Shown: positions 7,190 to 39,839 of the stretch, in pieces
Position numbering within the stretch: the first letter of the stretch is position 1
How the letters are laid out: every line of letters starts with the position of its first letter
Origin: Loktanella atrilutea
GTDB taxonomy: Bacteria > Pseudomonadota > Alphaproteobacteria > Rhodobacterales > Rhodobacteraceae
Assembly (NCBI RefSeq): GCF_900128995.1
Contig: NZ_FQUE01000001.1
Coordinates: 372,001-436,000 of the forward strand
Reading direction: 5' to 3'
Length of the DNA: 64,000 nt
Position numbers and translations under genes: made by a program
Notes under the pieces: generated by a model
Databases searched by the model: none
What the model was told of the DNA's origin: nothing
The model's input: the letters and a program-made list of their open reading frames with translations, nothing else

Positions 7190-7618
7190 TCACGTATCGC
7201 CGGACGGAATGTTGAACCCGGGCGGCGTTAGGGTGAAACCGGCGAAGTCGAACCCGGGGGATACGGTGCAGCTGACCAGCGACCAGTCGCCGGTGCTTTG
7301 CGCCGATTGCCAGTGGCCCGCCGGCACAATGGCCTGAACCGCGTGTCCCTGCAAAACCTTTGGACCCAGCACCGTAGCATGGGCGGGCCCGGCTGACGTG
7401 GCCGCCTGGCGCAGGATCAACGGCGCGCCGGCGTGGTGAAACCAGATCTCCGTCGCATCGACGGTGTGCCAGTGGCTGATCTCTGCGGCCTTCAGCAGGA
7501 ACAGGATCGCGGTGCCGGTGGGACGGCCGGGATTGTCGGCCACCCATGTCTGGCGATACCAGCCGCCCTCGGGGTGGGGCGACAGATCCAGGTGGGCAAT
7601 CAGGTCGTCGGCAGTCAT
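7190..7618 (-). CDS. Cupin-fold protein, DUF985 family
   Basis: This 142-residue protein is a single RmlC-like cupin barrel. The opening H-P-E-G-G-W-Y-R-Q-T-W and the metal-site-like H-W-H-T-V-D-A-T-E-I-W-F-H-H (about 48-61) are hallmarks of DUF985. The start at 7618 is preferred over a codon 30 bp upstream because it follows an AAAGGA ribosome site and matches the family's M-T-A-D-D-L-I opening. It converges on the DUF6505 gene 15 bp away. Enzymatic activity is unassigned. Confidence 0.82.
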   Translation of the reverse strand: MTADDLIAHLDLSPHPEGGWYRQTWVADNPGRPTGTAILFLLKAAEISHWHTVDATEIWFHHAGAPLILRQAATSAGPAHATVLGPKVLQGHAVQAIVPAGHWQSAQSTGDWSLVSCTVSPGFDFAGFTLTPPGFNIPSGDT

Positions 7619-7749
7619 CGGGCGTCCTTTCTGAATCAGGCATCGCAAAATCTTAAACTGGGTTAATAAATGATATTCCAGGCAATCCGGTATGCAACCG
7701 AATGCCGTGCCAGCCGTTGTTGCATCAGATCACTAAACAGGAGAGAACA

Positions 7750-37151: not shown

Positions 37152-37495
37152 CAGACGACGGCGGTCACGATGATCTCGACCTTGTAGTCGGGCGTGGCGA
37201 GCTTCGCTTCACCGGTCCAGCGGGCGGGGGCGTTCCCCTGGCTGACCCAGCCGTCCCAGACGGCGTTCATCGCAGCGAAATCGGCCATGTCCGCGACCCA
37301 GACCTGCGCCGTCAGGATTTTCGACTTGTCGGTACCCGCCAGTGCCAGCAGCCGGTCGATCTGCGCCAGCACTTCGGTCGTCTGGGCGGTCGCATCCTCG
37401 CCGGGCTGGCCGACTTGACCGGCCAGATAGACGATACCGTTGTGGACGACGGCCTGCGACATCCGGTTGCCGGATTCGATGCGGGTGATGGTCAT
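37151..37495 (-). CDS. RidA/YjgF-family reactive-intermediate deaminase
   Basis: This 114-residue protein is a single RidA trimer subunit. The usual landmarks are seen: S-Q-A-V-V-H-N-G-I-V-Y-L-A-G-Q-V, T-x-Q-V-W-V-A-D-M, and N-A-P-A-R-W-T-G-E-A with the arginine that binds the substrate carboxylate, then the C-terminal V-E-I-I-V-T-A-V. RidA proteins hydrolyse reactive enamines/imines; this one belongs to the YjgH/YoaB-like subgroup by its P-A-R-W variant, so activity may differ. The island junction lies 30 bp upstream of its start. Confidence 0.88.
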   Translation of the reverse strand: MTITRIESGNRMSQAVVHNGIVYLAGQVGQPGEDATAQTTEVLAQIDRLLALAGTDKSKILTAQVWVADMADFAAMNAVWDGWVSQGNAPARWTGEAKLATPDYKVEIIVTAVV

Positions 37496-37524: not shown

Positions 37525-37586
37525 GTGGAGCGGGTAACGGGAATCGAACCCGTAACTGAAGCTTGGGAAGCTTTCGTGATACCTTT
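37525..37586 (-). pseudogene. Displaced 3' part of tRNA-Gly (attachment-site copy)
   Basis: Read on the minus strand, this copy matches the intact tRNA-Gly from the D-loop (AAAGGTATCAC) to the encoded CCA, but lacks the 5' acceptor strand and the 5' half of the D-stem. The T-arm and acceptor 3' half are identical over 32 bp; the anticodon loop TTCCCAA is retained. The anticodon stem differs by paired changes (G-C to A-T at 28-42), so it descends from a related but not identical tRNA. Confidence 0.8.
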
Positions 37587-37646
37587 ACTCATTTCAAAGA
37601 CATTAGCTTTAGGCCTAAACAACTGAATTCATTGACTAAACAAAAA

Positions 37647-37721
37647 GCTAAGCTTGCGTTTTGCCCCAAATTTGGGATGCTTTTTGGGATACACTTTCAA
37701 TGTCAGAAGTGCAAGCTTAGC
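37647..37721. repeat. 11-bp inverted repeat in the island left end
   Basis: GCTAAGCTTGC (37647-37657) and GCAAGCTTAGC (37711-37721) are exact complements 53 nt apart. They flank the TGGGAT repeats, so they may belong to a recombination or regulatory structure. Confidence 0.6.
37671..37697 (+). repeat. TGGGAT repeats, left arm-type sites (putative)
   Basis: TTTGGGATGC and TTTGGGATACACTTT lie 10 bp apart, about 85-110 bp inside the left tRNA fragment. The same TGGGATACACTTT string recurs at 39673-39685 near the opposite end. Paired short repeats inside both ends are typical of tyrosine-integrase arm sites. Confidence 0.55.
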
Positions 37722-37941
37722 AATAGAAAGACTGTTACGGTTTCGGGCATCATACAAGTTTCTGTATGGAAGTTGGTTAGAAGCTTGATGATGAGCAATC
37801 GAAACCTTTAGATCGAAAAAGTTCCGTGGGCAAAGGTTACGCTTGTGTGAAGCCCTTGAGTGCCGCAGTTCGCGTGGTCGCTCAAAGCGTAATTCATGAT
37901 GCTACATTGGTGAGTATCTTTAACGAAATTGAGGAAATGAA

Positions 37942-39222
37942 TTGGAAATAGAAGTTAACGAAGATTCATTGAGAAAGTTGTTTGCGGAGCATCTTGAGGG
38001 TGAAAGGGCATTTAAACTAGTCGTTGATGAAATAGAAGATGAGGGCAACAAAAGGTTCACTTACTTCCTTCATCATCCTTGGAACGATACGACATTAACA
38101 ATCGTTCTTTCAGACTCATATGAAGATGTGCAGGAAATAGAAGCTATACTCAAACGGATCAGCTTTCCCGAAAACTATTCCGCTATAATGCATAATGAAA
38201 GCAGGCACTTAGAGGTGTTCTGGACAGCGTTTAAATTGAGAAAAAAACATGATGATATGAAGTCGCGCTCATTTGAGGTTTGGTGGCGCGGCACAAAAAG
38301 GATCTGTCGGTTTGGTGCTGCAAGTGACGATGCTTTAAAGCTCGCAGGTTCAATATTTCCTATTGCGGCCCCGAGCCATACTGAACACCGGAATCTAAGC
38401 TCATTTAATTTGATCGCCATTGGGGCGGACCATCATAATCTCGGGGAACCAAGATGTTTTTGGGTGGACTGTAGTGGGGTAGAGGACGAAGATCTTGATG
38501 AATATCTTCGCACCATCAACTTTTATATGACGTATTATGACAGAGAAACGCCGCGAATTCTGATCCACGAACCGCAAACAAAAATGAACGATAGTTCCAG
38601 GCCGCGTTATGTTGAGGGTAACTTTCCAGAAGAGCTAGTCGCTGGTGCTATTGATCCGTCAGTGACTTCATTTTGGTTAGGGACATTTGAGACTCGAGAC
38701 CCAGCAATGAAGTTTCTCCTTCATTACCGTTTACTAGAGTTTCTTGCATTGTCCTATATAAAGGAAGAGCAGAGGAAGGAACTTATCGACATACTTAGGC
38801 GTCCGCACTTGATCGCTTCTACTGATCGCGCGGCTGGGGAGATTGCGACGCTCTTCTCCGGTCAAATTGCAGCTAACGATCGACTTAAAAACTTTGTAAA
38901 AGAATCGGTAGATGCGAAGAAAGTTTGGGCTGTTATAGATATGAACAGAGCTGAATTTTGTGACGATTGTCGATTTGATGGTGGCTATGAAGTGCATTCC
39001 GTGATCGGAAAGCAATTGAAGTTTGAAGATTGGAAGAAAAGTGGTCCAATTTCCCTCGTCGATAAATTACGGGCGATTAGAAATTGCCTTGCGCACGGTC
39101 AAGATGACGTCACTCGCGGCGTCATTCATACAACTGAGAGAAACAGAAGAATATTGATGCCATGGGTTAATCTTATTGAAACTTTTGCCGCAGAGGCTAT
39201 GTTGTATGGAAGACAAACCTAG
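37942..39222 (+). CDS. HEPN-domain protein, putative anti-phage RNase
   Basis: This 426-residue protein has no match I recognise over its N-terminal ~300 residues. The C-terminus contains L-R-A-I-R-N-C-L-A-H-G, with the HEPN RNase signature R-x4-H (Arg380, His385) in the context typical of ApeA-like HEPN domains, which cleave RNA during abortive infection. The start is a TTG at 37942 with GAGGA 6 bases upstream; the nearby ATG at 37937 is out of frame and stops after four codons. No signal peptide or membrane helix is seen. It is the only gene of an AT-rich tRNA island, has clearly different codon use from its neighbours, and is followed by its own terminator. Defence is inferred. Confidence 0.65.
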   Translation: MEIEVNEDSLRKLFAEHLEGERAFKLVVDEIEDEGNKRFTYFLHHPWNDTTLTIVLSDSYEDVQEIEAILKRISFPENYSAIMHNESRHLEVFWTAFKLRKKHDDMKSRSFEVWWRGTKRICRFGAASDDALKLAGSIFPIAAPSHTEHRNLSSFNLIAIGADHHNLGEPRCFWVDCSGVEDEDLDEYLRTINFYMTYYDRETPRILIHEPQTKMNDSSRPRYVEGNFPEELVAGAIDPSVTSFWLGTFETRDPAMKFLLHYRLLEFLALSYIKEEQRKELIDILRRPHLIASTDRAAGEIATLFSGQIAANDRLKNFVKESVDAKKVWAVIDMNRAEFCDDCRFDGGYEVHSVIGKQLKFEDWKKSGPISLVDKLRAIRNCLAHGQDDVTRGVIHTTERNRRILMPWVNLIETFAAEAMLYGRQT

Positions 39223-39286
39223 TCTGGGAGAGACTAAATGAGCACTACTGATTAACCTACATAACTACATATAGTTTTTTCTGGTG

Positions 39287-39325
39287 GGCCTTGGTGATTC
39301 GTTATCGCCAAGGCCTGCGCTGTTT
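39287..39325 (+). terminator. Intrinsic terminator of the HEPN-type gene
   Basis: A 10-bp stem (GGCCTTGGTG with CGCCAAGGCC, one wobble) closes a 9-nt loop and is followed by TGCGCTGTTTT, 64 bp after the stop codon. The T-tract is short and slightly displaced. Confidence 0.65.
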
Positions 39326-39483
39326 TAGAAAGGTAGAAATTCCATTTAACCATTAATCTAGGCCACTTGAGAGAGTCGAGCCTGACCACACAACCGCTGC
39401 CGTCACGCAAGCGGCGCTTTGTAACTTCTATACTCCTGACGATGATTCGGCCGACATCTAAGGGTCTGGCTCGCTATGTCTCA

Positions 39484-39517
39484 GCCTATGGTGAAGTATT
39501 TCGGCCTATGGTGAAGT
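39484..39517 (+). repeat. Two tandem GCCTATGGTGAAGT copies
   Basis: The 14-bp string occurs at 39484-39497 and 39504-39517, a 20-bp period (about two helical turns). This spacing would place two protein-binding sites on the same DNA face. Confidence 0.65.
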
Positions 39518-39660
39518 CATATCACCATATTTTCATGCAGAAATACCACACAATCTATAAATCATATTGATCTAACCCTTTGCAACTACAGGATAAACAC
39601 CGTTCTCGTCCTGATTGCGAATCAATTCACAAATGGGCATTTCGGTCCCGCTGCCCAGGC

Positions 39661-39686
39661 GTGGGATACGTTATGGGATACACTTT
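39661..39686 (+). repeat. TGGGATAC repeats, right arm-type sites (putative)
   Basis: GTGGGATACG and ATGGGATACACTTTG lie 12 bp apart, about 80 bp inside the intact tRNA end, mirroring the left-end repeats. TGGGATACACTTT is shared exactly between the two ends. Confidence 0.55.
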
Positions 39687-39765
39687 GGAAATAGTTGCTA
39701 GGACCGAGGGCGACGCCAGAAAGTTCATACTTGCGTAAGCCATTGATTAATCAAGTGAATTTTTG

Positions 39766-39839
39766 TGGAGCGGGTAACGGGAATCGAACCCGTAACAGGA
39801 GCTTGGGAAGCTCATGTGATACCTTTTCACCATACCCGC
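39766..39839 (-). tRNA. tRNA-Gly, anticodon CCC
   Basis: On the minus strand the gene reads GCGGGTA at the 5' acceptor and TACCCGC-T-CCA at the 3' end, a perfect 7-bp acceptor with encoded CCA. The D-arm (GTGA/TCAC), anticodon loop TTCCCAA (anticodon CCC) and T-arm (ACGGG-TTCGATT-CCCGT) are regular; pair 27-43 in the anticodon stem is a mismatch. It is the intact copy at the right border of the island, so its 3' half may have been supplied by the element. Confidence 0.95.

Follow-up and report, generated by a model that had tools for sequence, protein, structure and literature searches.

A 2.24-kb element inserted at a tRNA-Gly(CCC) gene of Loktanella atrilutea carries one sizeable gene, whose product is a protein of 426 residues with a conserved N-terminal domain and a C-terminal HEPN-like domain. 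The element lies in a stretch of 64,000 nucleotides (contig NZ_FQUE01000001.1, positions 372,001 to 436,000), here called the window, and all coordinates are those of the window unless another sequence is named. On balance, we think it probable that the cargo protein is a single-protein abortive-infection RNase which combines an N-terminal sensor with a HEPN effector and acts like Tha or ApeA, a likeness of action and not an assignment to either family. The original prediction for this DNA had proposed a candidate anti-phage system; the island and its sole cargo have stood up, the HEPN-like C-terminus has conservation and weak fold matches behind it, and the anti-phage effect, together with RNA cleavage, trigger sensing and dimerization, is something that we infer by analogy. 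Several rival explanations are weighed below; they overlap, and their probabilities need not sum to one. Papers are cited by PMC identifier.

The cargo protein and its relatives

The cargo gene (37942-39222, + strand) encodes an N-terminal domain of about residues 1-243 and a HEPN-like domain of about residues 246-426. A scan of genome contigs uncovered homologues in a Rhodobacteraceae metagenome-assembled genome (L003, 61% identical), in Tardiphaga (L004, 32%) and in Bradyrhizobium (L005, 30%). Further members are a copy with an in-frame stop in the same family as the source genome (L002, 28% identical), a broken copy in genome G1052, and a remote relative (L088) in genome G971. With the source genome counted each time, the gene is present in 2 of 394 family, 1 of 385 class and 3 of 398 phylum genomes, draws that overlap, so that the counts are not independent. 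No relative was found in the phage, plasmid and viral-contig collections. The distribution fits a gene that is patchy, dispensable and horizontally moved, like a defence gene, as a pattern and not a proof.

The HEPN assignment had begun from the sequence R-N-C-L-A-H at residues 380-385 (codons 39079-39096, + strand), taken as the HEPN RNase signature. Its motif residues are invariant in the alignment of four sequences, but an R-x4-H alone is no more than chance would give: 73.6% of 5000 shuffles of the cargo protein contain one (17.6% for R[NDH]x3H). The argument for a HEPN domain is therefore carried by conservation and fold. The published definition of the motif is R-x4-6-H with a polar residue after the arginine (PMC3710099), and in the cargo protein polar N381 follows R380. 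The second acidic residue of HEPN domains, often within E-x3-[KR], has a counterpart in E266, which is invariant in the four aligned sequences, with no lysine or arginine four residues on. The structure check proposed for the C-terminus used a model of the domain beginning at residue 246. HEPN entries, MNT-HEPN (HepT) toxins and the Csm6 HEPN domain among them, took the first six places, but with weak Z scores of 4.3-4.9 against 3.9 for the next, unrelated entry. A HEPN fold, a bundle of four helices, is thus supported by weak fold matches of the model. Considering that R-N-x-L-x-H-G, with its N, L and G, is kept in all five members read, that HEPN entries fill those first six places, and that L088 has RCKIVH near its C-terminus (although not aligned there), it is improbable that the domain is some other helical bundle with a chance R-x4-H.

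No Pfam or NCBIfam family matches the cargo protein at E<=10, and the N-terminus has no recognisable profile match, as had been claimed; its length, however, is about 240 residues rather than about 300, since the modelled domain starts at residue 246. With 38 of the 69 invariant columns, among them the motif NFYMTYYD (residues 193-200; codons 38518-38541, + strand; alignment A1, four sequences), the N-terminal part is a constrained domain. W47, F97, F155, F173-W174 and F244-W245 are also invariant in the four sequences. Identity to L003 is 11/40 over residues 1-40, the most variable segment, 43/78 over 41-120, 81/123 over 121-243 and 127/183 over 244-426. Strands are predicted between residues 25 and 123 at low confidence, the mean predicted local distance difference test score per 10 residues being at most 61.

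The expression signals largely bear out the earlier description. The open reading frame (ORF) list has the gene opening at a TTG codon, 6 nt downstream of the ribosome-binding site GAGGA (37931-37935, + strand, found in the sequence), and a mechanical ORF list gives the L003 homologue a TTG start too. Codon use is AT-rich compared with the surroundings, as predicted: the gene has 43.2% GC and 41.2% GC at third codon positions (GC3), against 67.2% GC for the window and a GC3 of 85-89% in three nearby genes. Gene GC is also lower than in either 1-kb flank in L002, L004 and L005; in L003, where the left flank is 171 bp only, the difference is slight. A terminator-like hairpin with a 15-bp stem follows the gene (39284-39318, + strand; terminator scan and folding against shuffles). 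The scan as a whole gave 3 terminator-like sites against 2.5 in shuffles, but the 111 nt around the hairpin (39235-39345) fold with z = -3.35.

Perhaps the gene is only a passenger of a decayed island, no longer selected here and encoding a HEPN-like protein that is just RNA-binding or regulatory. Two of the six members are broken (L002 and the G1052 copy), and neither an integrase nor a remnant of one was found in the island (see below), as this explanation would have it. Codon positions 1, 2 and 3, however, are 71, 80 and 36% identical to L003, with a nonsynonymous divergence (dN) of 0.30 and saturated synonymous divergence (dS), which argues for strong constraint on the protein. Considering also that the reading frame is intact, with its start signal and terminator-like hairpin, that third positions are saturated while first and second positions are conserved, and that the motif residues are invariant, we regard the passenger explanation as rather unlikely.

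Integration at tRNA-Gly(CCC)

The tRNA search places tRNA-Gly(CCC) at 39766-39839 on the - strand. The 3' part of this gene is present as a 62-nt direct repeat, 92% identical and 2240 bp apart, of which the left copy (37525-37586, - strand) is attL and the right copy (39765-39826, - strand) is attR. In Rfam, 37537-37589 scores as a tRNA fragment with 27.9 bits, under the gathering score of 29. A query from the tRNA side was matched in 9 of the 9 genus genomes searched, and in six of the eight other species the site is empty, with a RidA-like gene 25-37 nt from an intact tRNA-Gly. The remaining two congeners (L035 and L037) have no RidA-like gene in the 11-12 kb read to the left of tRNA-Gly(CCC), and their arrangement suggests a rearrangement or a large insertion.

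All eight congeners carry the tRNA allele TGAAGC..TTTCG, and the left copy in the window, attL, carries this ancestral host allele as well. The tRNA-Gly of the window has AGGAG..CTCATG, which differs to either side of the anticodon loop and is absent from the eight congeners. Because the left copy has the host allele while the window's tRNA differs, we infer that the 3' part of the present tRNA, attR included, came with the island by a crossover within the shared block GTGATACCTTT (39816-39826); the tRNA would then be a host/island chimera. As an exact 28-nt pattern, the island allele occurs in its own genome only among 208 family genomes.

Within the element every ORF other than the cargo gene has at most 93 codons. 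Frames of 108-139 codons are found only across the ends of the element, none of them contained in it, and about 355 nt upstream and 540 nt downstream of the cargo gene have no clear gene. The gene is thus the sole cargo of a tRNA island, as first proposed. Those two spacers, along with the MNT-HEPN-pair toxins among the first structural entries, would accommodate a different function, namely a HEPN toxin whose antitoxin is an RNA or a very small protein and which acts as an addiction module retaining the island, rather than as a phage-triggered defence. We consider this distinctly unlikely. The element has no partner ORF of more than 93 codons that might be an MNT antitoxin, and the neighbours are metabolic and cell-wall genes. 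Moreover, the folding of two upstream pieces barely exceeds that of shuffles, if at all (z of -1.30 and -0.11), and the Rfam matches at E<=1 are the tRNA, the tRNA fragment and a sub-threshold RF04354 (22.7 against 65.7 bits, on the strand opposite the tRNA). Finally, proteins of 420-434 residues with a conserved N-terminal domain are large for a simple toxin, and the cargo protein is larger than MNT-HEPN toxins.

Two further observations concern tRNA-Gly sequences. Repeat and hairpin scans revealed two 17-nt direct repeats in 39481-39529, the second of which runs into a hairpin with an 8-bp stem, TATGGTGA..TCACCATA (39507-39529); the hairpin resembles the 5' part of tRNA-Gly (39816-39834), with 79% identity over 19 nt. 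These repeats and the hairpin may serve the island in regulation or recombination. In one congener (L040, 8991-9203), a 42-nt tRNA-Gly fragment adjoins tRNA-Gly(TCC) and is a probable remnant of another integration.

Arm-type sites and mobility

One copy of a 25-nt pattern, TGGGATRC-N4-TGGGATACACTTT, lies inside each end of the element. The left copy, TGGGATGC-N4-TGGGATACACTTT (37673-37697, + strand), and the right copy, TGGGATAC-N4-TGGGATACACTTT (39662-39686, + strand), form a direct repeat and are candidate arm-type sites for integrase binding. Allowing up to 3 mismatches, 100 shuffles contain no match to the left copy, and in 394 family genomes these two are the sole exact sites of the joint pattern. 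By coordinate arithmetic, a circularised island would space the arms 251 bp apart.

The element contains no integrase ORF, nothing besides the cargo gene exceeding 93 codons, and no integrase remnant was detected in the island with seven integrases of its own genome and two viral integrases (best E 0.47). Among the loci read of those seven, none has a TGGGATRC pair and two have a single copy. When the element ends were compared with plasmid and phage records, the matches listed (the best 8 of 53, 8 of 24 and 8 of 42) were all at tRNA-Gly; the plasmid search covered the right end, not the left, and two plasmid records of at least 99% for the right end stand outside the matches listed.

A shorter motif, TGGGATAC-N4-TGGGATAC, occurs in 36 stretches of viral contigs, 28 of which hold one pair only within 300 bases. 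We read the surroundings of seven stretches (L044, L047, L049, L051, L061, L068 and L077), identifying integrases and other genes from the sequence by eye and not by profile search; the regular expression for integrases used on the viral stretches was insensitive and missed the integrase of L068. In L051, with which L046 shares sequence, pairs 246 bp apart flank a tRNA-Ser-like fragment, and the arms adjoin a small helix-turn-helix-like gene and a 378-residue tyrosine integrase. In L068 and L077, copies with a spacing of 250-262 bp surround a tRNA 3' end, and an integrase frame begins 16 bp past the arm; L061 has one arm pair just past a tRNA 3' end. No tRNA core was seen between the arms in the surroundings read of L044, L047 and L049. 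Since the viral copies are mostly unremarkable and three of the seven read have no tRNA core, the arm motif is not specific, and it is from position, pairing and spacing that we assign it a putative role in the window. Tyrosine integrases that seem to differ have TGGGATAC-N4-TGGGATAC repeats in common, at about 250 bp around tRNA cores, as seen in L051 (7019-7284), L068 (11219-11238) and the window sites.

Because an integrase is absent and yet arm-like sites lie at both ends, with a virus-like spacing, we read the element as a remnant like a cis-mobilizable element (CIME) or as a trans-mobilised mini-island, mobilisation in trans being possible. A CIME keeps its att sites and has lost the genes for integration and transfer (PMC5704250). 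The element likewise retains attL and attR and has no integrase, and transfer genes were judged absent from the ORF list only. Unlike a CIME, it measures 2.24 kb, has one gene and bears an arm-type site at each end, and its descent by decay from an integrative and conjugative or integrative and mobilizable element would be conjectural. A bolder idea, which we consider doubtful, is that of an integrase-free mobile cassette in which one immune gene of an undescribed HEPN family, with att and arm sites, circularises to an attP-like site and borrows the tyrosine integrases of phages or islands, as an island equivalent of miniature inverted-repeat transposable elements. In any case the element is a very small test case for the spread of single defence genes without their own integrase, and excision in trans is directly testable because both att sites and the arm-like sites are known, as is the empty site of close relatives.

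Proposed action and relation to known defence systems

The mechanism that we favour, with a sensor releasing an RNase, draws on HEPN biology (PMC3710099) and on Tha (PMC11087260). After arrival of the element, by recombination at tRNA-Gly(CCC) with a tyrosine integrase supplied elsewhere or since lost, the N-terminal domain of about 240 residues would keep the HEPN domain inactive at rest. Binding of a phage-made or phage-induced factor by the N-terminal domain would then release the HEPN domain, presumably a dimer, to cleave RNA via R380, N381 and H385, so that growth and phage production would halt. As a HEPN RNase, it would be expected to act independently of metal. In HEPN proteins RNA cleavage needs the histidine and, in some families, also the arginine (PMC3710099).

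A close parallel is Tha, in which a C-terminal HEPN domain with RNSIMH follows an N-terminus without a discernible domain; the protein is activated by tail proteins, and the H270A mutant is inactive (PMC11087260). Like Tha-1 and Tha-2 of Staphylococcus aureus prophages, the cargo protein is a single protein with an unrecognised N-terminus and a C-terminal HEPN RN-x3-H motif, and is borne by a mobile element, the comparison being by description. Tha-1, however, has 301 residues rather than 426, and Tha is prophage-encoded with an inhibitor, Ith, and has tail proteins as its trigger (PMC11087260).

ApeA (HEPN family ApeA/BMEI1217) also fuses a long N-terminal domain to HEPN. Its ApeA-NTD1 domain, of about 300 residues, consists mainly of beta strands and has a number of conserved aromatic residues (PMC3710099). 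The low-confidence strands in residues 25-123 and the invariant aromatics of the cargo protein recall this domain, although the N-terminal part here has about 240 residues. The cargo protein has no Pfam match at E<=10 and DzbB alone as its PADLOC match; that both libraries contain ApeA models is a presumption, which makes the absence of an ApeA match no clean test.

The match to DzbB of the Dazbog system (PDLC03836, E 0.0039) joins residues 250-389 to positions 200-309 of the 341-position profile, and three of four family members match at the same loose limit. If the cargo protein were a stray component of a two-gene system such as Dazbog, using a chromosomal partner or decaying, it would be expected to have DzbB as its sole PADLOC match, and its remote relative L088 matches DzbB at 4.4e-10. 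We nevertheless consider this explanation unlikely. The match is confined to the C-terminal region and spans about a third of the profile, not its full length, and the island has no second sizeable gene. No DUF262-type gene, which in Dazbog we take to be DzbA, was present among nine L003 and nine L004 ORFs (Pfam), seven window neighbours and three L005 ORFs, L003 being cut 171 bp upstream of the homologue and most L005 ORFs lying outside the scan. The DzbB profile matched 0 of 200 phylum genomes at E<=0.001, the source genome included, but the controls were silent too, so this count is uninformative. Dazbog no longer defends once its DUF262 gene is lost (PMC10952713). L088 itself (727-2079) is a gene of 450 residues with the DzbB-like C-terminal region and a weak MauJ match. 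Its N-terminal part is different, and it may belong to a second family of stand-alone genes.

Systems in which one protein combines a HEPN effector and a sensor are already known; the novelty lies in this family and the element that carries it. New cases continue to be found in which one protein provides a HEPN defence with an unusual partner domain. Of a further 31 DefensePredictor systems that were validated, four contain HEPN domains, and DS-11, a one-protein system, combines CBS with HEPN (PMC13092281). Among the literature matches listed, which covered few subscription journals, there was no account of this family or of an integrase-less one-gene HEPN island. If defensive, the cargo protein would represent a further HEPN defence family, rare and encoded by one gene, whose N-terminal sensor is new and unrecognised by Pfam or NCBIfam models.

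The neighbouring host genes, assigned with Pfam, are glucose-6-phosphate dehydrogenase, 6-phosphogluconolactonase, phosphoglucose isomerase, a 4HBT thioesterase and a RidA/L-PSP protein on the left, and a peptidase M15-type protein and an L,D-transpeptidase on the right. PADLOC matched one of ten neighbours, the RidA/L-PSP gene (37154-37495), to PD-T4-2_B with E 1.3e-10. Because the RidA-like gene is present at six empty sites, this match probably reflects the shared L-PSP domain only, and such matches could mislead defence annotation.

The relatives have varied surroundings. L003 adjoins an IS1595-type transposase, followed by ordinary genes. L004 sits in a region that we read as a prophage, with tail-like genes called by eye; Pfam gave a peptidoglycan-binding protein, a MerR-type regulator, a DUF4062 protein and a sub-threshold DUF7427 there. 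At 11255-12970 of L004, 2-4 kb from the homologue, the DUF4062 gene is accompanied by a 197-residue protein with RNQMAH (R-x4-H; weak DUF4145, 0.17), possibly a small defence cargo cluster. Just upstream of the Bradyrhizobium homologue in L005, at about 7513-7700, lies a small gene that we take to be of the YodC/DUF2158 type.
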